Shown piece after piece: positions 8,019-20,043 of a stretch of 21,786 nucleotides of DNA. The DNA comes from a virus. Under the pieces are notes generated by a model. The model was not told where the DNA came from and searched no databases. It saw only the letters and a program-made list of their open reading frames with translations. The stretch's first letter is position 1. Each line of letters begins with the position of its first letter. The stretch is taken from positions 1-21,786 of IMG/VR virus record IMGVR_UViG_3300020450_000111. One strand, 5' to 3'. The translations under genes and the position numbers were made by a program.

Positions 8019-8744
8019 TTATCCTGTAAAAATAAAGGGGGATATGCCCGCCGCATAATTAGCGTTTGGGTACATTGCTAATTCTGGAAAGTTGTAACCG
8101 CCTGTTTGCACCGCCGTTGTCGGAGCGGCAGGAACTTGCCCTGCATAGAAAGCCGAAGTGTCATCGAGCAGCCCGCCCATCGTGCCAAGCGCATTTGCAT
8201 AAAAATCTGGATTGCCTGTAAAGCTATAGCCTGGAAGCTGACCAGGCAAAGGTGCGGGGCCAAAATTTGTTGGGCCTGTCATGTTTGTTTGCACATCTTG
8301 GCCTGTCGTTTGGTCGAATGTAGCCATTGGCGCAGTAACGGTTGAAACGGGAAATGGCTGAGTGTTTATAGCGTCTGCCCCAGGAAACACACCGTTAACA
8401 AAACTTGAGAGCGGGCGGCCTAACTCATCCGCCATATCAAAACTTGCCCGCCCTTCTGTTTGTCCTCTGTCTAAGTAATGTTGCTGCGCTATCTGGCTTG
8501 TTCTTGCGCCAAAATCTGCGCCTGGTGCTATGCCTTCTGATCTCGCAGTATCGGCGGCAAACTGAAGAACATCAGGATTAGCTTGCATATATTGTTGCTC
8601 TGGCGTAAGTACCGTTGTTGCCCGCATGTTGGCAAGCGAGGCTTCTTGTTGTTTGCTGTACTGGTCGAAGAGACTTCCAGGACGAACATCAGGGAACCCC
8701 GTATTCGGGTCTATTTGCGCCAATGCTTGTTCAAAAGTAATCAT
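8019..8744 (-). CDS. Tail-region protein with NPDV...HY...G...EGR motif
   Basis: The 241-residue product has an excellent ribosome site (GAGGAA) before ATG 8744. The recognisable part is residues 51-100: YMQANPDVLQF, then AQQHYLDRGQTEGR. The Tyr...Asn-Pro-Asp-Val...His-Tyr...Gly...Glu-Gly-Arg pattern is a short helical module found in diverse bacterial secreted and surface proteins and in some phage proteins, usually in several copies; here there is one. The rest is Pro/Gly/Thr-rich and probably extended, ending in aromatic residues. It lies just upstream of the tail hub and after fibre-associated genes, so a structural tail role is likely, but I do not recognise a defined function. Confidence 0.55.
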   Translation of the reverse strand: MITFEQALAQIDPNTGFPDVRPGSLFDQYSKQQEASLANMRATTVLTPEQQYMQANPDVLQFAADTARSEGIAPGADFGARTSQIAQQHYLDRGQTEGRASFDMADELGRPLSSFVNGVFPGADAINTQPFPVSTVTAPMATFDQTTGQDVQTNMTGPTNFGPAPLPGQLPGYSFTGNPDFYANALGTMGGLLDDTSAFYAGQVPAAPTTAVQTGGYNFPELAMYPNANYAAGISPFIFTG

Positions 8745-8747
8745 GCC

Positions 8748-9017
8748 TTATTCCTCTGGCTCTGGGTCTTCCCAGTAAGGTGACCATAAAGAGTCTTGGT
8801 TGCGTTGCAAATAAGACCAAAGTTTGTCAGCATCTTTATCAAACGGTTCTGAAGTCAGAGGGTTTCGTGAGGCAATAATTATCCGATAAGTATTTACACC
8901 TTCGCCCTCTTCCCCCTCTTCAATAATAGTTTTTGCGATACTTGAACTGTCACCGTTGTCGTAAAATTCACTAACAATTTCGTAAGTTTTTCCGTTTATT
9001 TTGCGCTGGTTAGACAT
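8748..9017 (-). CDS. Small acidic hypothetical protein, 89 residues
   Basis: The frame opens at 9062, but ATG 9017 has a GGAG nine bases upstream and overlaps the preceding gene by eight bases, so I chose it. The product starts MSNQRKINGKTYEIV, a small beta-hairpin-like segment, then has an acidic patch (IEEGEEGEG), an aromatic strand YRIIIASRN, and ends in an acidic tail PYWEDPEPEE. There is no signal peptide or membrane segment. I do not recognise a family. Lying between two tail-region genes with tight spacing, it is probably a minor tail component or assembly factor. Confidence 0.5.
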   Translation of the reverse strand: MSNQRKINGKTYEIVSEFYDNGDSSSIAKTIIEEGEEGEGVNTYRIIIASRNPLTSEPFDKDADKLWSYLQRNQDSLWSPYWEDPEPEE

Positions 9018-9363
9018 CGCTTTCAACTCCGAATACATATGTATTATAACTACCCCCAACATTCTTAACGGATGTTCCAGCTAATAACGTGATCTGTGGG
9101 CTGTCTGTTCCAGTTTTGTATTGCTGTGGCCCTGAGGAGAAACCGCTATAGTGTTCTACATCTACACCGTTTGCGGTTAAGTAAGATCTATAGTAATCGC
9201 CTTGTTGGCTTCCAGCATTACTCACCCAGCCACGAAACACCCTAGAGTCTGGCACAGTATAAATCACAGCGTTGTTTGTGCTTCCGGCTAACGCTATTTG
9301 CTTGTCCGGTGTTGGGTTTGAACCAACGGCCGCAGAGGCGGGGACATCAATTGGAGTTAACAT
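9010..9363 (-). CDS. Small tail-associated beta protein, 117 residues
   Basis: ATG 9363 follows AAGGAAAGGAAA, a strong ribosome site. The protein is rich in Ser, Thr, Gly and Val with alternating hydrophobic residues (NAVIYTVPDSRVFRGWVSNA; DSPQITLLAGTSVKNVGG), which indicates a beta-sandwich domain with no charged helices. Domains of this type, with strands like VIYTVP and ITLLAGT, occur in phage fibre-tip and baseplate decoration proteins. It directly follows the putative receptor-binding protein with a 14-base gap, so it may decorate or chaperone that protein. No named family is assigned. Confidence 0.55.
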   Translation of the reverse strand: MLTPIDVPASAAVGSNPTPDKQIALAGSTNNAVIYTVPDSRVFRGWVSNAGSQQGDYYRSYLTANGVDVEHYSGFSSGPQQYKTGTDSPQITLLAGTSVKNVGGSYNTYVFGVESDV

Positions 9364-9377
9364 TACATTTCCTTTCC

Positions 9378-11045
9378 TTATTGATCACTTAATATTGCGG
9401 TGACCCTACATCGTAAACTTGGTGCTTTCGTATAGGTACGAGCAGACCGTTGAGCGTTTGTGGGGGCTACGTTAAAAACTGCAAAATCGGAATCAAAACC
9501 ACCGGCTGCAGTTTCTGTCGTTAACTTGGTCGGACCTGCATTAAGATCATTTGGGTTGAAACGATGAACTTGGTAGTAGTCGGGGGTCCCACTGTTTTTG
9601 AAATAATGGTTCTCACTGCCGTCAACAAAAAAAGTATTATAACTATGTGCGTTATACGAAGCGAATGCACTATTTGCTAGTATATCGCCCCAATCAATTT
9701 CACCGTTATTACTGCCAACGTTATTAAAAACACTTGAGGCAACATTTATCAGTGACGCACTCGCTACTGCGACTGCGTGTAAGCCATGTGTTCCAATTAT
9801 GGGGCCATGAGTAGCAAAACCTTCCTCCATTTCAGCTTGCGTGAATGTAAAAACCATTCGCTTCCTATTCCCGCGATTATAATAAATTAAATATCTCGCA
9901 AGCCCTGTGTCGAAGGTTAAACGCAAGTCTTGATATTGTTGATTGGAGTAGTAATTTACAAAAGCATTGACCATATTTACTGCAGAGCCAGAATTGTTGC
10001 CAAACGGGTCAGTTCCGTTTTGATGCGAACTGGTCGAGCTGAGATATTGCCACCTTGGGGCTACGGTCGTTGAATTGTCGTTGACTAGAGTTTCAGGCAC
10101 TTCATACAACCATGCTCTTGAATTATTCATAGAATAGCCAAAAAGATATTTTTTTCCATTTGTATGACGGTTATGGTAAAAACCTTGTAAATGATTGTCA
10201 TAACTTGTCGGTGATTGATGCGATGGACTGTCAGCCGCGATAGCTGTCTGTCCATGCCAGTATGAACCAGAATTGCCACCGCCTGTTGTGTTTGCGGCAG
10301 TCAAGTTTGTTTCAGTTTCATCAAGGTCAATCCATCTTATTCGCGTATCACTTGGGCCTCCTTGATACATAAAAAAGATATATCTACTGCCATCAAAATG
10401 ACCCCTTTGATAGAGGTCGTAATAACCACCTAAAAATGTGCCTGTGTCTGCATTCCAAATATCAAACCCTGTTTGATTAGATGAGTAATTGTAAAACAAA
10501 ATTCGTAGGTTTAATCCATTCGCATTAGTATGAAAAATTGTGTAATTGTTAGGATAATTATAAAGTGTGTAGCCAAGATTACTACCGAATGTAACACTGC
10601 TTTTATCGACTTGTGTTTGCGTGTTTAAAGTAGGCTCGCTTTGACCAGACACACTTACGTTGACGACTTGATCTTGAATTGTTGTAAAATTTGAAGAATT
10701 GTTATTTGAATTAAAAACTTTTTCGTCTGTAAAGACGATATTTTTGGCGGTCGGTCTAATCGACAGAGTAGATGAAGGCGGCATAATTACCGAACCTTCA
10801 AGTCCTAACCGATTAGCTTGTGCGCAGTTTCCAAGCGAAGTAAATTGACCAGATGCCAAACCACTTGTCAAACCTATCGTAGCTTCAGCCGTTATAGCAT
10901 CTGTCGGCTGGCCCTGCGTTGCTTCAATGCTTTTGATCACAAGATTCGTCGTGCTGTTAGTCGTAACAATATCGTTCCGAGTCCCAGCGATCAATTCATC
11001 TGTAGTAAAAGAATGATAGCCAGCTTGTTGTATTTGATCTGCCAT
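9378..11045 (-). CDS. Putative receptor-binding tail protein, 555 residues
   Basis: The product is exceptionally rich in Asn, Ser, Thr, Tyr and Phe, poor in Lys and Glu, with many short beta-like segments (YIFFMYQGG, RIRWIDLDE, KYLFGYSMNNSRAWLYEVP, LARYLIYYNRGN). The repeated strand-turn pattern with tryptophans and aspartates looks like a beta-propeller or similar receptor-binding head rather than a coiled fibre. The N-terminal 110 residues are more regular and probably anchor it to the tail. Its codon composition looks more AT-rich than its neighbours', which is common for fast-evolving host-range genes. The start has AGAGGAAA upstream. Receptor binding is inferred from composition and its position after the fibre gene; no enzymatic motif is seen. 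Confidence 0.55.
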   Translation of the reverse strand: MADQIQQAGYHSFTTDELIAGTRNDIVTTNSTTNLVIKSIEATQGQPTDAITAEATIGLTSGLASGQFTSLGNCAQANRLGLEGSVIMPPSSTLSIRPTAKNIVFTDEKVFNSNNNSSNFTTIQDQVVNVSVSGQSEPTLNTQTQVDKSSVTFGSNLGYTLYNYPNNYTIFHTNANGLNLRILFYNYSSNQTGFDIWNADTGTFLGGYYDLYQRGHFDGSRYIFFMYQGGPSDTRIRWIDLDETETNLTAANTTGGGNSGSYWHGQTAIAADSPSHQSPTSYDNHLQGFYHNRHTNGKKYLFGYSMNNSRAWLYEVPETLVNDNSTTVAPRWQYLSSTSSHQNGTDPFGNNSGSAVNMVNAFVNYYSNQQYQDLRLTFDTGLARYLIYYNRGNRKRMVFTFTQAEMEEGFATHGPIIGTHGLHAVAVASASLINVASSVFNNVGSNNGEIDWGDILANSAFASYNAHSYNTFFVDGSENHYFKNSGTPDYYQVHRFNPNDLNAGPTKLTTETAAGGFDSDFAVFNVAPTNAQRSARTYTKAPSLRCRVTAILSDQ

Positions 11046-11057
11046 TTTTTATTTCCT

Positions 11058-12674
11058 CTATTCAAATTTCATTTGAGTTGCAACGCCGCCGCCAGCGCTT
11101 GGTGTTGACCAAGCCAGCACACCATTACCAGCGGCATCGGTTAGCACTTGCCCTGCCGCGCCGACTGTCGGCGGCAACGTAAAAACAATATTGCCAGAAA
11201 ATTGTGCATGAGGCGGAGCTTGGAGAGCGACATAATGAGCGTTATTTACCTCGCAGTAAAAGCGCACCTGACTTTGAGATCCAGTGTTTTTAACGCCCAA
11301 GATACCTGAAGAAATTGAGTGACTTTGCATATCCAAGTCACCGCCAAGCGCCGGACTCGTATCCTGCGACAATTCCGTTATAACGCCAAGGTTAGTCCTT
11401 GCGGTAGCCGCATCTGCTATATCGGAAAGATTGTTTGAGACTGTTAGAAAGTTTGAGGCTGTAACGGCAACTGCCGACCAGGCGTTATTGGCCGCGTTTC
11501 TCACTTGCATCTGGTCAAGGTCGCTCCGAAACACAAGGTCACCGGATTGCAAAGCCGTGCCATCATTGCGTTGTGTGGGAGCCGAATTTTTAGGGCCAAG
11601 ATACGTTGACGAATAATTTGTTACATCCGTAACGTTACTCGCTACAGTTGTGATCGCGTTAGTCGCTACTGTTCCATCCTGGATATCCGCCAACGTATTC
11701 ATGTTTGTGACGTTAGCAGACGTAGCAAGCGTGTTCATATCTGCAACAACATCAGTCGTAGCTAATGTGTTCATATCATTAACTACATCAGTGGTAGCCA
11801 ACGTGTTCATGTCATTAACAATATCAGCCGTTGCTAATGTGTTCATATCAGCAATAACATCTGCTTGGGCAAGCGTATTCATATCAGAAATGACATCTGC
11901 GCTTGCAAGCAAATTCATGTCATTGACAATATCAGTCGTTGCCAATGTGTTCATGTCAGAAATTACGTCAGGAACGGCAAGTGTATTCATGTCACTTATA
12001 ACATCTGCTTCGCCTAATGCTGCCATGTCAGCTAAAACATCGGTTTGAGCCAACGCCGCCATATCTGCAACGACGGCGGTTGTAGCAAGCGTGTTCATGT
12101 CATTTACAACATCAACAGTACCCAGCGTGTTCATGTCGGCTACTGCATCGGCTGTACCTAACCTTCCGATTTCAGTGTCCTTGCCCGCAACGGTTTGCAG
12201 ATTGTTATTGTTGATCTGCGCTGCAACCGTCTGCAAGTTGTTGTTATTGATTTGCGCGGCAACCGTTGCTACGTTTACACCATCAGGCAAGGTTAAACAC
12301 GTTACAGTAGTTCCGTTTGTAACCAGCAACCCAAAGAAAGCGTTTCCTAACGTTGCAGTGTTTGAGCCATTGTCGAATGTTAGCGTTTGCCCCGTGGCGT
12401 TTTCGATGATCCACCAGTTTTGTGTTGCAGGAATTGTTATCGTTGCTGCAAAGTTGCCTGTAAATTTAAACTGGCGAAAACGTATATCGTTGGTTGTGTA
12501 GTTCGTTGAGGTCAGCGTGTAGGTCGTGCCTGTAAGCGTGATCTCGTTTACGCCGTGTAGAGCCTCGTCCATAACGTCGAACAAGCCGTTTAAACCGCTT
12601 GCCAAACCCCAAGTGTTCAGCCCTTCGCCAAGTGCTTGCTTTTTATATTTGCCGCGTGTGGTAGGTGATGCCAT
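11058..12674 (-). CDS. Tail fibre protein with thirteen 12-residue repeats
   Basis: The 538 residues are organised as an N-terminal domain (1-135, with MASPTTRGKYKKQALGEGLN and WWIIENATGQTLTF, the style of podoviral fibre anchors), two exact 12-residue copies of TVAAQINNNNLQ (137-160), thirteen tandem copies of a TLATTDVVNDMN-like unit (171-326), and a C-terminal part with strands such as GDLVFRSDLDQMQVR, DIADAATARTNLGVI and GDLDMQSHSI, typical of fibre shafts. Repeats of the D-V-V-x-D-M-N-T-L type are frequent in fibres of marine phages and probably form a trimeric helical or beta-helical rod. Repeat number can change by recombination, altering fibre length. Attachment to the host surface is the expected role. 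Confidence 0.8.
   Translation of the reverse strand: MASPTTRGKYKKQALGEGLNTWGLASGLNGLFDVMDEALHGVNEITLTGTTYTLTSTNYTTNDIRFRQFKFTGNFAATITIPATQNWWIIENATGQTLTFDNGSNTATLGNAFFGLLVTNGTTVTCLTLPDGVNVATVAAQINNNNLQTVAAQINNNNLQTVAGKDTEIGRLGTADAVADMNTLGTVDVVNDMNTLATTAVVADMAALAQTDVLADMAALGEADVISDMNTLAVPDVISDMNTLATTDIVNDMNLLASADVISDMNTLAQADVIADMNTLATADIVNDMNTLATTDVVNDMNTLATTDVVADMNTLATSANVTNMNTLADIQDGTVATNAITTVASNVTDVTNYSSTYLGPKNSAPTQRNDGTALQSGDLVFRSDLDQMQVRNAANNAWSAVAVTASNFLTVSNNLSDIADAATARTNLGVITELSQDTSPALGGDLDMQSHSISSGILGVKNTGSQSQVRFYCEVNNAHYVALQAPPHAQFSGNIVFTLPPTVGAAGQVLTDAAGNGVLAWSTPSAGGGVATQMKFE
11697..12164 (-). repeat. Thirteen tandem 36-bp repeats in the tail fibre gene
   Basis: Each unit encodes a 12-residue repeat with consensus T-L-A-x-x-D-V/I-V/I-x-D-M-N. 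The Asp-Met-Asn end and the Asp-Val middle are the most constant positions; the two variable residues after Leu-Ala differ most. The units keep frame without interruption. The copies are diverged, not identical, so the array is old or under diversifying selection. Confidence 0.85.
12195..12266 (-). repeat. Two tandem 36-bp units encoding TVAAQINNNNLQ
   Basis: The two units encode identical 12-residue sequences but differ at synonymous positions in the DNA, so the amino-acid sequence is being kept. The period equals that of the larger array just downstream in the same gene. Confidence 0.85.
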
Positions 12675-14035: not shown

Positions 14036-14674
14036 TTAAGCAGAAGTTGTCAAACCGACATACTTGCCGTGTGCAGCTTCGTTGAGAACCGCCAATGTGG
14101 CTTCACACATTACTGTGCGCTTCTCATTGTCACCCGTCTTACCCAACTCGTAAGTTTGGAAAGGACGGAGATAAGCAACACCGAGCATTTCAAAATCAAG
14201 CAGCAATGCAGTTTTAGCCCGCATAAAGCGATTTGCCATAATCTTGATGCCCCCTTGACCACTGAAATCTGACACGTAGATATCAGCCGAACCCATGATG
14301 GATGCACGGTCAAGTGCTGGCGCAGTGTCACGGTATAAAGTTGCTATACCAGTGAAACCAGATATTGCTTGGCGGTTAAAACTACCCGCGATAAGCACAT
14401 CTGGCTCTCCGCCAGATTCCCAACATTCAGCAATCAGAGTTTTGAAAGTAGCCTCTTCGATTGCATCACTGTTTGTCGGATCAGTCGGTGCAGCAACGCT
14501 TCCGTTAGCAGCGTTAAAGCCAGGGTTTTGCATGCCTGTTTCTCTTTTTGCCACCACGTTAGTGCTGATCCAAGACTCCAAACCAGCCATTTGAGCGGCG
14601 GTTGAAGCATCGCCCGCAGCCAAAGCTGCGTTTTGTGTTAAAGCGAATTCTAAGTCTCGCTTCAATTCCTTAGA
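14036..14674 (-). other. Exon 3 of the major capsid gene
   Basis: Codons 117-328, beginning SKELKRDLEFALTQNAALAA and ending GLTTSA before TAA. The frame is also open 3 bases upstream to a TTG (14677), which an automatic caller would take as the start of a separate 213-residue gene; that TTG is the end of intron 2. Confidence 0.85.
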
Positions 14675-15551
14675 CAAAATCTTTGCATTGGCTCGTTACA
14701 CCAACACCTACTTTTTGTAGCTCGACCTTTCGGATACGAGTTGAGACTATATCATCATCTCATAAAGATGCTGGGCGCTTCCAACCTACTTAGGTTGTAC
14801 TCCTTGCGGATAGTCGTTGAACCTTCCATTATATAATGGCTTGGCTGCTGATTACCTTATCTTGCGACTTAGGCTTTCCAGCAATTCACCCAGTATTTTT
14901 AACCGCATATTGCTATGCGGCTGCGCTCATAGAATAACGCTTTTGCATCTGATAGGCCATTTGCGATTTGAATCCGGCTGAATCAACCGACTCAAGGCTT
15001 CCGGCTACGGATGCAGTTTTCTTCAGAATTTGCGTCCTGTTTCCAGGTCTTACAGTAGCCGCCGATGCTACAGCTGCATCATCATCGCCCTCAACGTGCT
15101 TGTTCGAAGCAGCATTGGCAAGCGAATCTGTATTCCCATATGTGTTAATGCTAGGTCGCTAACCCAACACCACTCTTACGAGTGCTAACGGTTGTCCCGT
15201 TAGATCAGACTATGTCTTAAACCTATAAATAGGCTTCTTGGCGCTTCCACTTCGCTTGAAGTGTACTCCGAAATCGGATAGTCGTTGCACGTTCCCTTTA
15301 TAAAAGGGCTTCGCTCAAGATTACCCTCGACTTGACGTTAGGGCTTCCCTTGAATTCACCAAGTGTTTTTTGAACTATATTACTATAGAACCGAGCTAAA
15401 TTAACTCATGTAGTTTGGCGGTTGCTGTCATTTTCTTTGCCATTGTCAATACAGGCGTATCGACGGGGCTGATCGAGTAGATCACATCACCCAAATCTTC
15501 ACGGATATTAACCCGTGTATAGGTCTGGGTCGTATTAGTTGGTACTGCCAT
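14036..15551 (-). CDS. Major capsid protein (DUF5309 type), split by two group I introns
   Basis: The spliced coding sequence joins 15551-15404, 15136-14937 and 14674-14036 (148, 200 and 639 bases) and gives 328 residues, the usual size for the DUF5309 / SU10-type capsid family. Exon 1 carries the family start MAVPTNTTQTYTRVNIREDL and GDVIYSISPVDTP. The first splice restores a tryptophan codon (T/GG) in the conserved HEW-x-x-D-x-L motif; the second joins QKR to SKELKRDLE, the other conserved motif. Unspliced, both exons run into stop codons within a few residues. GGAGG lies five bases before ATG 15551. It follows the scaffold by 20 bases and is followed by a strong terminator. Capsid identity is confident; splicing is inferred from sequence. 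Confidence 0.88.
14675..14936 (-). ncRNA. Group I intron 2 of the capsid gene, 262 nt, no ORF
   Basis: The 5' splice site follows a T (AAGCGT) that pairs with the guide GCGC at 14926-14923, with the invariant U-G pair at the cut. P2 is CCGCAUA-GCAA-UAUGCGG. P3 pairs CUGGGUG (14893-14887) with CGCCCAG (14777-14771); P4 pairs UUGCUG (14884-14879) with CAGCAG (14850-14845); P5 is GCCU/AGGU; P6 is CCAUU/AAUGG; P7 pairs GACUAU (14815-14810) with AUAGUC (14750-14745); P7.1 and P7.2 hairpins and P8 CAUCU/AGAUG follow. P9 has a GAAA loop. The last intron base is G (14675). GGUUCAACGACUA and GAUAUAGUC are the classic R and S core elements. P7.1/P7.2 extensions place it near subgroup IA. Confidence 0.9.
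14937..15136 (-). other. Exon 2 of the major capsid gene
   Basis: Codons 50 (last two bases) to 116, reading NTDSLANAASNKHVEGDD, then TVRPGNRTQILKKTASVAGS, then FKSQMAYQMQKR. It has no start codon of its own in a useful place and is too short to be called as a gene, so it would normally be missed. Confidence 0.85.
15137..15403 (-). ncRNA. Group I intron 1 of the capsid gene, 267 nt, no ORF
   Basis: The exon ends CATGAGT and pairs with the guide GCUC at 15396-15393, again with U-G at the cut. P2 is CUAUA-GUAA-UAUAG. P3 pairs CUUGGUG (15363-15357) with CGCCAAG (15243-15237); P4 pairs UUCAAG (15354-15349) with CUUGAG (15319-15314); P5 is GCCCU/AGGGU; P6 is CCCUUU/AAAGGG (15308-15294); P7 pairs GACUAU (15283-15278) with AUAGUC (15213-15208); P7.2 is CACUUC/GAAGUG; P8 is CCUAU/AUAGG; P9 is CUAACGG/CCGUUAG; P9.1 is CACUC-GUAA-GAGUG. 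The terminal G is 15137. Each helix differs from intron 2 by compensating bases. No homing endonuclease is encoded. Confidence 0.9.
15404..15551 (-). other. Exon 1 of the major capsid gene
   Basis: Codons 1-49 and the first base of codon 50, with GGAGG at 15561-15557 as ribosome site. Without splicing it would end three residues later at a TAG inside the intron, giving a useless 51-residue peptide. Confidence 0.88.
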
Positions 15552-15571: not shown

Positions 15572-16543
15572 TTACCCAAGAAGTTCCTCAAACACGGAGT
15601 TGAAATCCTCCTTGCTTTGAGTTTTGCTTGCAGCGTCCAACTTTTTCTTCAGATTAGAACGTGTATCGGCTTTTACTTTTGCGGAACCAGGCTTTAACAC
15701 CTTCGGTTTGCCCGCTACTTTCTTTTTGGCAACTTGCGGGGCTTGCTTTTCCAGTTGGAATTGCCGATGACCCGCCAATAGCCATTTAACCAGTCTTGCA
15801 TCAGTAATTGCGCCAACGTCTTCGGGGTTAAACCCATCCTCAACCAGTGCGTTGCGTAACTCTAGCGTTTCTCGCTCTGCTACCGATCCATCACGCCATT
15901 GCGGAATGTATTCGGGTAACAACTTGGCTTGTTCTGCCAAGTGTGTCTGCTTTTGAGCCACGGCTGCTTGCTGGTTTTGCATCATAATCTGTTGACGCTC
16001 TTCTTGCTTCTGCTTCCACTTATGGTGCATCAGAGGGGCTTCGAGGGGATTTTCTTCGAAAATCTCTTCCCAATTTGGCTGTTCCTCTTGCTGCCACATT
16101 TGTGCAAGCTGCTGCATCTGAGCCTGTACTTTTGCACGTTCTTGCTGAAGTTCTTGCTGGAACGCTTTTTTCTCCGCATCAAACGCCTTCACATCTTCCG
16201 AATGTGCTTGCGTCTTCCGCGTATAGTCTGCATGACGCAAATAATGACCTTGTACCTCATCCGGAGTGAGTCTCACGGTTTGCCCGTCAACGATAATTTC
16301 TACTATCTCTGGGGCCGCATCGCTTTCCTCTGCGGTATCGCCTTCATCTATTTCGTCATTGCTCTGCGCTTCGGCTTCTGCAATCTCGACATCCTGACCG
16401 TCGTCTTGTGCCTCGATTTCCTGTTCCGAAACGACTTCCTGTTCAGCTTGTCCAGCGTTAGCTGGGGCTAGGTCTTCTGGGGGAGTACCCGACAAAATAC
16501 CCTCGAATTGCTCCGTAATTGAAGCATCCATTTCTTCGCTCAT
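15572..16543 (-). CDS. Capsid assembly scaffolding protein
   Basis: The 323 residues have the scaffold layout: a strongly acidic N-terminal third (1-80), a short conserved segment VDGQTVRLTPDEVQGHYLRHADYTRKTQ at about 85-112 (the DYTRKT motif recurs in phage scaffolds of this type), a long Gln/Glu-rich coiled coil (113-215), and a Lys-rich C-terminal helix-turn-helix (265-323) that in scaffolds binds the inner capsid surface. The protein is not expected in the mature virion. AAAGGAAATACA precedes ATG 16543. It sits 20 bases upstream of the capsid gene, the usual order. No protease motif is present. Confidence 0.85.
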   Translation of the reverse strand: MSEEMDASITEQFEGILSGTPPEDLAPANAGQAEQEVVSEQEIEAQDDGQDVEIAEAEAQSNDEIDEGDTAEESDAAPEIVEIIVDGQTVRLTPDEVQGHYLRHADYTRKTQAHSEDVKAFDAEKKAFQQELQQERAKVQAQMQQLAQMWQQEEQPNWEEIFEENPLEAPLMHHKWKQKQEERQQIMMQNQQAAVAQKQTHLAEQAKLLPEYIPQWRDGSVAERETLELRNALVEDGFNPEDVGAITDARLVKWLLAGHRQFQLEKQAPQVAKKKVAGKPKVLKPGSAKVKADTRSNLKKKLDAASKTQSKEDFNSVFEELLG

Positions 16544-17540: not shown

Positions 17541-17716
17541 CTTTTCGCCTTTTTCTTAATTGTGCGCTTCATAATTTTGATCTTCACCTTCCCCTTTGGC
17601 TTTTTCTGCCTTCCAAGAAAGTCAAACATTCGCTTCGTTGTTTCCATGTCACTGTGGGAACCGTGTAAATTTGGCATAACTGTCTCAATCGTATAAGTTG
17701 ATGTTTGCGTTTCCAT
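17537..17716 (-). CDS. Small basic protein overlapping the portal 3' end
   Basis: ATG 17716 has AGGA seven bases upstream and gives 59 residues; ATG 17677, just past the portal stop, would give 46 and is the main alternative. The N-terminus is neutral and Thr-rich (METQTSTYTIETVMPNLHG). The C-terminal 25 residues are extremely basic (GRQKKPKGKVKIKIMKRTIKKKAKR in pattern, Lys and Arg at more than half of positions). Such a tail suggests nucleic-acid binding or interaction with the acidic tail of the adjacent 226-residue protein, whose ATG overlaps this stop. No family is recognised. Confidence 0.5.
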   Translation of the reverse strand: METQTSTYTIETVMPNLHGSHSDMETTKRMFDFLGRQKKPKGKVKIKIMKRTIKKKAKR

Positions 17717-19907
17717 CCGGTGATCCTGCCACCATCTTTTCACGCTCTAATTCTTTTTCCGCCTCTAACTCGCGCATCCTGTACTCATGGTCACGCTGCA
17801 TCTTCTCGTATTCAAACGCCAATCGGTTAGCCGCCTCTTCACGGTCAACCGCCGCTTTGAGTTCAGCCGCCTCCCTTTGCGTCTTGGCAGCAAGTTCCGC
17901 CTTGAACCGTGCAACTTCCGCATCACTCTCTGCCCGCATGCGGTCAGTCTGCGACTTCATAGCGGCTTCCGCCTCGCTCTGTTGCAACCTTGCTTGCGCT
18001 TCCATTTTCGCAAGTTCCATCTTCTGTTGCGCTTCCATCATGCGCGGATCAGGCTGCTTCGGCTGACCTTGTTGCGCCATCATTGCTTGCGTTGGGTCGG
18101 TAAAGAATAACGCAGGGTTAAGATCAGCCGCTTCACACATTTTCTTGAGCGTGTTGTAATACAAGTTCAACGGCGCTATCGGGTTGTTCAAGCCAAGTTG
18201 TTGCATCAACGCTTCCTGCTTCTGGGCCACGACTGCCAGCTTGCTCACTTGCTCCTGCTTCGTTCCCATGCCAAGACCAACATTGATCTGCAAGTCCATC
18301 TCGACATTCCAGCTTGACGGGTCTATCGGAACCCATTGACCGCGCAGCTTAACAAGTTCTTCCTTGTTGCTGTAGCGGTTCAAGATCTGCAACGTCAAAC
18401 GCATCAACCGCGTCCAGCCCGTTTCCGCAAACTGGCGGCAGATCAACTCAACGCGGGCTCTAGCCGCATTTGCCATCTCATCCACGCCACGCGCTGTTTC
18501 CGTTGTGACCTTCGATGCATCCAGTCCGCCAGCCATGTCATTGATGCCCGTGCGTTTCTGTAGCATCGAGTCAATCCATTGAAGCATCGGAAACGCCTGT
18601 CCGCCAGACCACTGTGTAGACAACGGAACAATCGCAGTTCTGGGATCACCAGTGACACGGTAAATCGAACCAGGGTCTTCGGATAACAAGTCATCCAGTT
18701 CAACCCGTGATTCATCCACCGCTTTGTGCGGGTACAAGCTGAGATACAACCCGTCCATCATAGAACGCCAAAGCGCGGTCTTTAATCGCTGCAAGTCCTT
18801 CGTGAGATCCGCAAGACTATAACCGTATATCCGGTGCGGTCTTGGTATCGTTGTTAACTCCGCAAACGGCAACTCACTGACTACCTCGTTCTCAAGGATT
18901 TTCGTGTTACTCGCGCCGCCTATGCAAGTCACGCGGCGCAACTCTGCACGACCATCCCCGTCATAATCGACCTTCATGTAACACTCAAATACAGCAACAC
19001 GCCTTTGTAACGGGTCTAAACTGCTATACTCGTTTGTCATCGTTTCCAGATCCGCAAAGCGTTGCTGGAATAACTGATCGTATATCTCGTCACTCGTTGT
19101 CGAAGCCGCATACACGGTTTCCTCGTCGTACCCCTCTTCGATCAACTCTTCCACGGTACGCGCTTGACGATGACACGCAAAACTCCAAGTCGGATCATTC
19201 TCGTCAATGCTACGCGCCAAACGGTTAACGAAAAATTCCTCCGGTGGTATCGCTTCCCAACGAAGCCGCCCCTTACTCTGGGTGTGCCTGATCTTTACAT
19301 CGTGTATCGGGTTTACAACGCGGTTATTCAACGCTTCGGTCATCGCCATCTGATCGTCCATGACGGTATCGCTGTCTTCATCGCCATACACGCCAAGTTC
19401 AGTATGCTCCAAAACCTCAACTTCGGGGTTGTTCACCAGAACCATGTATTCCTGTTCAGAGAGCCCCGTGTATGTCTCTTCTTTCACCCGCTCTAATTCT
19501 TCCCACCACACCTTGCAAAAGCTGGTGCCAGTGATTAGCGCGGACTTCATCCATGATGTGCCAATCCGGTAGCCCGGGTTTTGCTTCATCAAAACGTGAT
19601 TAACGTAATCCGTAGCCTGTTCAGCCGCATCCTCATCCTCTGGGCCTATCGGGGTAAACACCGCCGCGCTTTCCGTACCCATAAAAGTGCGGACAAGCGA
19701 GGGCATGACCATCTCGATCGTTTCCAGCACATCGCGGCTCATCACCTGACTGCGACCCTCGCGCTCATCGCCATAACCCTCGCCCTCATAGCGGGCAAGG
19801 TTATCGCGCATCTGGCTCGACAGGTCATCACCTTCGAAGCCAAGGCTGTCGCGTATATTTTGTGATACGATCTCAGTTAACCGAGCATCGTCAATCTTTT
19901 CAGTCAT
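17685..19907 (-). CDS. Portal protein (P22-like)
   Basis: The portal is the twelve-subunit ring at one capsid vertex through which DNA enters and leaves. The 740 residues contain helical and beta segments typical of podoviral portals: SRDVLETIEMVMPSLVRTF at about 57-75, then EQATDYVNHVLMKQNPGYR, GTSFCKVWWEE, ELTTIPRPHRIYGYSLADL, and KRTGINDMAGGLDASK in the clip-stem region. From about residue 640 to 730 there is a long Glu/Ala/Arg coiled coil, as in the P22 barrel. I chose ATG 19907 over the GTG at 19931 because the latter has no ribosome site. It overlaps the 47-residue gene by eight bases. Confidence 0.85.
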   Translation of the reverse strand: MTEKIDDARLTEIVSQNIRDSLGFEGDDLSSQMRDNLARYEGEGYGDEREGRSQVMSRDVLETIEMVMPSLVRTFMGTESAAVFTPIGPEDEDAAEQATDYVNHVLMKQNPGYRIGTSWMKSALITGTSFCKVWWEELERVKEETYTGLSEQEYMVLVNNPEVEVLEHTELGVYGDEDSDTVMDDQMAMTEALNNRVVNPIHDVKIRHTQSKGRLRWEAIPPEEFFVNRLARSIDENDPTWSFACHRQARTVEELIEEGYDEETVYAASTTSDEIYDQLFQQRFADLETMTNEYSSLDPLQRRVAVFECYMKVDYDGDGRAELRRVTCIGGASNTKILENEVVSELPFAELTTIPRPHRIYGYSLADLTKDLQRLKTALWRSMMDGLYLSLYPHKAVDESRVELDDLLSEDPGSIYRVTGDPRTAIVPLSTQWSGGQAFPMLQWIDSMLQKRTGINDMAGGLDASKVTTETARGVDEMANAARARVELICRQFAETGWTRLMRLTLQILNRYSNKEELVKLRGQWVPIDPSSWNVEMDLQINVGLGMGTKQEQVSKLAVVAQKQEALMQQLGLNNPIAPLNLYYNTLKKMCEAADLNPALFFTDPTQAMMAQQGQPKQPDPRMMEAQQKMELAKMEAQARLQQSEAEAAMKSQTDRMRAESDAEVARFKAELAAKTQREAAELKAAVDREEAANRLAFEYEKMQRDHEYRMRELEAEKELEREKMVAGSPDGNANINLYD

Positions 19908-20043
19908 CCTTGGCTTCTTTCTTTGCCGCACAAGTGCAAGGTTTATACTTGCTCAAGCGGCCGACCTCTTTTTGCAGGGCTTCGACCACTCCGGTTAACG
20001 CTTGCATGTGCGCTTGCATTTTTCTCGCTGTCGCAAAATCCAT
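19900..20043 (-). CDS. 47-residue protein coupled to the large terminase
   Basis: ATG 20043 shares its A with the terminase stop (TAATG), and the TGA lies eight bases inside the portal start, so both ends are locked into the operon. The sequence MDFATARKMQAHMQALTGVV, then EALQKEVGRL, is an amphipathic coiled coil, followed by KPCTCAAKKEAKDD with a Cys-x-Cys pair. It is below usual gene-length cutoffs and would be missed. The coiled coil suggests an oligomer, possibly binding the terminase or portal; function is unknown. The overlap pattern is the main evidence that it is a real gene. Confidence 0.6.
   Translation of the reverse strand: MDFATARKMQAHMQALTGVVEALQKEVGRLSKYKPCTCAAKKEAKDD

Follow-up and report, generated by a model that had tools for sequence, protein, structure and literature searches.

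We asked what interrupts the major capsid protein gene of the linear virus record IMGVR_UViG_3300020450_000111, whether the interruptions could be removed to give a functional reading frame, and how they came to lie there. The whole record, 21,786 bases, was analysed and is referred to as the window. Its structural genes lie on the minus strand and code for the terminase large subunit, an SU10-type portal, a scaffold, the capsid and an SU10 adaptor; the 8-kb structural region showed no DNA similarity to known phages. A gene of the tail region (window 11058-12674) contains many near-repeats of the form DMNTLATxDVVxDMNTLA, with a Pfam LED_rpt match below the cut-off. The capsid gene occupies 15551-14036 (-) and carries two interruptions:

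17685 to 19931, minus strand: SU10-type portal gene (PF23899, E 5e-190)
15572 to 16543, minus strand: head scaffolding protein gene, upstream of the capsid gene (PHROG 3927)
15404 to 15551, minus strand: capsid exon 1, ATG start at 15551, 3' end CATGAGT (placed with the empty allele L001 and PF17236)
15137 to 15403, minus strand: intron 1, predicted group I (IA-type), 267 nt, ORF-less (RF00028, 91.6 bits)
14937 to 15136, minus strand: capsid exon 2, starting GGAATACAG and ending AAAGCGT
14675 to 14936, minus strand: intron 2, predicted group I (IA-type), 262 nt, ORF-less (RF00028, 91.3 bits)
14036 to 14674, minus strand: capsid exon 3, starting TCTAAGGAATTG (S-KELKRD) and ending TAA
15393 to 15396, minus strand: intron 1 internal guide GCUC, pairing as P1 with exon GAGU (15407-15404), U.G at the splice site (sequence and MFE fold)

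A cmscan of the whole window against all Rfam families gave exactly two matches, both to group I introns (RF00028), at 15413-15185(-) with 91.6 bits (E 1.2e-22) and at 14943-14721(-) with 91.3 bits, the gathering score of this family being 50 bits. A sequence-only reading had placed an ORF-less group I intron at 15403-15137 and had proposed such a scan; its coordinates, the guide GCUC, the U.G pair at the cut, the terminal G at 15137 and the restoration of the HEW motif were all correct to the base. Exon 1 ends CATGAGT at 15404, as proposed, and GCUC (15396-15393) pairs with GAGU. Intron 1 splits the codons HE|W and its last base is G; its excision restores CAT GAG TGG AAT ACA GAT TCG CTT, that is HEWNTDSL. 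The guide of intron 2, GCGC (14926-14923), pairs with exon GCGU, the terminal G lies at 14675 and the junction reads KR|SKELKRD. No stop-free stretch exceeded 45 aa in intron 1, in agreement with its description as ORF-less, or 53 aa in intron 2, and neither intron encodes an endonuclease ORF.

Removal of both introns gives 987 nt and an SU10-type major capsid protein of 328 aa, which matches PF17236 (SU10_MCP) over residues 4-325 with E 3.3e-83. On the contrary, the unspliced reading meets a stop after 51 aa, and the reading with intron 1 alone removed meets one after 123 aa. Product lengths of 1516 nt for the unspliced and 987 nt for the spliced RNA had been predicted, and both figures are right, the difference of 529 nt being the sum of 267 and 262.

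The secondary structure of intron 1 was drawn with the following elements:

15375 to 15388, minus strand: P2 hairpin CUAUA-GUAA-UAUAG, pairs drawn
15237 to 15363, minus strand: P3, 15363-15357 with 15243-15237, enclosing P4-P6a, the P7 5' strand, P7.1 and P7.2
15208 to 15283, minus strand: P7 pseudoknot (guanosine-binding helix), GACUAU (15283-15278) with AUAGUC (15213-15208), pairing 100% across 28 introns
15150 to 15235, minus strand: P8 (15235-15220), P9 (15203-15185), P9.1 (15184-15171) and P9.2 (15168-15150)

The claim that the core helices P2 to P9 can all be drawn was borne out, P2 to P9.2 together with P7.1 and P7.2 pairing in 66 of the 66 drawn pairs. Folding of the intron 1 RNA gave -90 kcal/mol versus -64 +/- 5 for shuffled sequences (z = -5.2; 0/200 shuffles equally stable) and an MFE fold that includes P1, P2, P3, P4, P5, P6, P6a, P7.2, P8, P9, P9.1 and P9.2; the corresponding z for intron 2 was -3.9. 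Subgroup IA is defined by the presence of P7.1 and P7.2 between the P7 5' strand and the P3 3' strand, and intron 1 contains these two helices in that position.

Covariation was analysed in an alignment of 28 distinct capsid-gene introns, with the structure drawn from intron 1 and P7 treated as a pseudoknot. In this alignment 85.9% of the cells were paired and double changes occurred in 51/66 pairs, figures that are somewhat favourable to the drawn structure, which derives from one row of the alignment. None of 500 shuffles reached any of the five covariation measures, and the slid controls collapsed. P3 was 99.5% paired and P7, P7.1 and P7.2 were 100% paired, while P2, P8, P9.1 and the inner part of P9 were variable or poorly aligned. 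The pairing of P3, P7 and P7.2, the first and last of which show numerous double changes, exceeds what the single-row bias could produce. A decayed remnant that no longer splices, the phage living with a truncated capsid or with a capsid expressed from another copy, is very improbable, given that the core helices are all intact and covarying, the U.G pair and the terminal G are kept, the frame is exactly restored, the unspliced product would have just 51 aa, the MFE z is -5.2 and the window ORFs show no sign of a second capsid gene.

As judged from its sequence, the element at 15403-15137 is a group I (IA-type) intron, one of two in the capsid gene of this uncultured SU10-type phage, and we infer that both are spliced in the cell. 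In the capsid mRNA the guide GCUC would pair with the exon 1 end GAGU, an exogenous guanosine bound in P7 would attack after the U of the U.G pair, and the freed exon 1 would then attack after the terminal G at 15137, joining the exons and restoring HEW; intron 2 would follow the same route at KR|SKELKRD. Since the introns are predicted to splice themselves out, capsid production would depend on RNA catalysis.

Empty alleles, in near-identical phages, were found by using exon 3 as the IMG/VR query. L001 has an uninterrupted capsid gene, and its capsid shows 99.7% identity to the predicted splice product; at the intron 1 junction this allele carries the uninterrupted sequence CACGAATGGAATATAGATTCG (HEWNIDS), and it reads through both junctions at exactly the predicted bases. 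The group I reading thus agrees with the covariance model, with the exact splice geometry, with the covariation seen among relatives and with the intron-free alleles that occur in nature. The allele L002, on the same contig as L014, contains intron 2 with 4/262 bases changed and lacks intron 1. In L106 and L043 an intron 2 of 92-94% nucleotide identity lies at the same codon junction although the capsid proteins are only 42-53% identical, indicating that intron 2 moved horizontally into the same site. Alleles with none, one and two introns at about 90-97% nucleotide identity make the cost, the mobility and the trans-homing of these introns directly testable.

An exact search with a core 26-mer found no copy of intron 1 beyond the window contig, and a search with the HEW-site junction pattern matched 20 contigs, none with SU10 capsid or intron similarity. 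We also considered introns 1 and 2 as recent duplicates and rejected this, the two belonging to different clades of the intron tree. The finding of intron 1 in a single contig would suit an assembly chimera, in which an intron fragment was joined into a capsid contig; we regard this as hardly conceivable, the insertion being base-exact with a matching guide, intron 2 being present in the independent contigs L014, L106 and L043, and the same arrangement recurring in dozens of other capsid contigs.

A scan of IMG/VR with an intron-core pattern returned at least 119 stretches, and at least 37 of those loci carry insertions in an SU10-type capsid gene. An intron-blind scan, in which a protein stretch lying downstream of the most-used insertion site served to pick the capsid genes, found at least one insertion in 16/80 loci, a set ordered by relatedness to the intron-bearing seed and including near-copies. 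When the exon 3 proteins were clustered at 97%, 11 of 32 clusters had an intron-bearing member and 7 of those 11 were mixed, with and without introns; in 5 mixed clusters the exon 3 proteins with and without an intron were identical. Boundaries were set by group I rules for 88 insertions, all but two of them 220-310 nt long and nearly all ORF-less. In 20 loci that were re-tested, 34 insertions placed by protein alignment corresponded to exactly 34 RF00028 matches. The insertions fell at profile columns 28, 33/35, 54 (window intron 1), 57, 61, 70, 93-95, 101, 118, 122 (window intron 2), 128 and 249-255; close site labels may partly reflect alignment jitter, and we claim at least 11 sites. Three introns per capsid gene were found in L019, L050 and L096. 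A compact subtype of 221-223 nt occupies site 33 in many contigs (L026, L156, L165, L172, L180) and forms a separate clade. The SU10-type capsid gene of L147 is interrupted at 1730-2718 by a group I intron of 989 nt that holds a frame of 232 codons for an HNH endonuclease. No other intron of these capsid genes bears a recognised endonuclease, and further HNH matches lie on the L147 contig; L108 carries a 519-nt group I intron whose 122-codon frame has a hydrophobic stretch and cysteines.

The description of a single intron therefore understates the case, intron 1 being one of many across a family of capsid genes. As a class, SU10-type capsid genes appear to be an insertion hot spot for such introns, one apparently unreported. 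The recurrence of introns, across many lineages, in a late gene that is highly expressed might be read as a sign that they are retained for a regulatory role, for example capsid timing through splicing or the guanosine level; this is improbable to our mind, as presence and absence among near-identical phages, with identical exon 3 proteins in the five mixed clusters, argues that the introns are dispensable.

The intron tree showed clustering by site, with 20 label changes versus 41 in shuffles (0/200), a result to which near-copies contribute. One boundary, in L079, was mis-placed by the automatic caller; this intron was kept as a tree row and left out of the flank and core comparisons. Compared with their closest intron-free alleles, intron-bearing alleles diverged in the exons at 3-4 times the gene average up to 12 nt from the site, while pairs of intron-bearing alleles were nearly identical within those flanks. 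At 24 de-replicated sites the +/-12 nt flanks contained 95 differences versus 44.4 +/- 10.6 expected from random positions within the same allele pairs (0/5000). At the intron 2 site L001 has CGA AGC and the window CGT TCT, which encode the same two amino acids with four bases changed. Directly upstream of intron 1 lies a divergent block:

15405 to 15510, minus strand: divergent exon 1 tract, CDS nt 42-147, with 23/106 differences from L001 versus about 3% around it

Differences from L001 amount to 30/1041 upstream of the tract and 4/193 downstream, and L001 and L014 differ at 7/106 positions in the same block. It is a probable co-conversion tract brought in with intron 1, its limits having been chosen after the data were seen and other recombination blocks being present in these genomes. 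The flanks are most simply read as having been copied in along with the intron, at the DNA level; alternatively, some alleles could stay empty since their target has changed.

Copying at the DNA level raises the matter of the initiating enzyme. Pfam revealed no homing endonuclease in most of the larger minus-strand window genes, and six-frame searches for HNH, HNH_3, GIY-YIG and LAGLIDADG_1 found none in the window, in L001, in G004 or in the complete phage C72C1. As neither an intron ORF nor an endonuclease was found in these, the initiating enzyme would act in trans from elsewhere, be of another type, or be absent; a trans-acting enzyme that starts the mobility is hypothetical. The endonuclease-free introns would be optional, selfish passengers. 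Because they come with altered exon flanks, their recent arrival may be ascribed to DNA-level gene conversion, either by trans-endonuclease homing or by plain recombination between co-infecting phages.

Comparison of the introns with each other indicated a modular build. The 5' modules (up to P3) of same-site introns stay similar even where the cores are only 65-75% identical (mean 0.66 versus 0.51 for different sites); the same-site similarity is partly constraint, as the guide must match its site. On the contrary, the pairs L024_57/L111_28 and L058_61/L070_35 share cores of 0.96 and 0.94, respectively, at different sites and with different 5' modules. That related phages have almost the same core at separate positions of one gene is more than site-specific homing alone can explain. 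Together with the lack of ORFs in all but a few introns and the 4-nt target GCCU common to L058_61 and L070_35, it could be taken to mean that the route of spread is not DNA homing: intron RNA would reverse-splice into capsid mRNA, be copied by reverse transcription and enter the genome through recombination. Precise insertion of that kind would leave the exon flanks unchanged, yet they differ from the empty alleles; L001 lacks the -1 U required at the intron 2 site; and the L024/L111 switch keeps the core while the whole P1-P2 module differs, which looks like intron-intron recombination. Spread by reverse splicing is therefore unlikely, and recombination of guides and cores between introns is the likeliest reading of these pairs.

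Taken together, we are nearly certain that the element is an IA-type self-splicing intron, one of two in this gene, that the two would be selfish passengers which arrived by recent gene conversion, and that SU10-type capsid genes are a hot spot for them. More tentatively, and with somewhat less than even confidence, we propose that these genes are a dense, actively turning-over niche of ORF-less introns in which P1-P2 guides and P3-P9 cores recombine separately. If so, a core that took over the guide of another intron could be directed to a new site, which would give the introns a natural, modular way of reaching further insertion sites that requires no endonuclease encoded by the intron.

Group I introns are classical elements of phages. 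The group IA introns of phage T4 td, nrdB and nrdD belong to the same catalytic class and have a P7.1/P7.2-type core, but they interrupt nucleotide-metabolism genes and carry endonuclease ORFs. Phage C72C1 (OQ984150.1) has the same gene order around the capsid, and its capsid gene is split at a neighbouring site by a 251-nt RF00028 intron, the sole one of that complete genome. Its record (8530-9731, L232) divides the capsid into two pieces, each named 'major head protein', and places three small, probably spurious ORFs between them; the intron is unrecognised in the annotation. Annotators should expect such capsid genes to show as two to four fragments and to be missed or called split, as in C72C1. 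A separate observation concerns Bacteriophage DSS3_VP1 (L231, MN602266.1 4390-6410), whose terminase large subunit is annotated as two pieces; the pieces are separated by DNA that resembles intron 1, together with a small hypothetical ORF, and the interruption is probably another intron.

The sequence-only reading considered an essential structural gene that depends on RNA catalysis unusual; it is indeed uncommon, but has precedents. In mycobacteriophage LittleE splicing of an intron, most likely group I, in the major capsid gene was proven by RT-PCR and N-terminal protein sequence, and empty relatives are known (Pope et al. 2013, PMC3706429). That phage belongs to another phage and host group than the window phage, and it has one 819-nt intron with an endonuclease ORF, whereas the window gene has two ORF-less introns of about 265 nt. 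In BAKA and Optimus a virion structural gene is likewise interrupted by an ORF-less intron of 265 nt, but this is a tail gene and the site is a single one (PMC3706429). For lactococcal phage Tuc2009, that paper cites a group I intron within the gene of a capsid subunit. In the Jug huge phages, essential genes contain numerous group I introns of small size (about 206 nt), in part confirmed by metatranscriptomes (PMC12363816); these are spread over many genes (terL, nrdD, polymerase) of 360-402 kb phages, while here the introns concentrate in one capsid gene of small phages. Phage group I introns are described as favouring genes of nucleotide and DNA metabolism, a preference called mysterious in 2025 (PMC12350094). 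In the open literature, subscription journals being largely uncovered, we found nothing that presents SU10-type capsid genes as a hot spot of introns. The kind of element is already known; the hot spot, the capsid genes with two or three introns and the mosaic introns are the part worth following.
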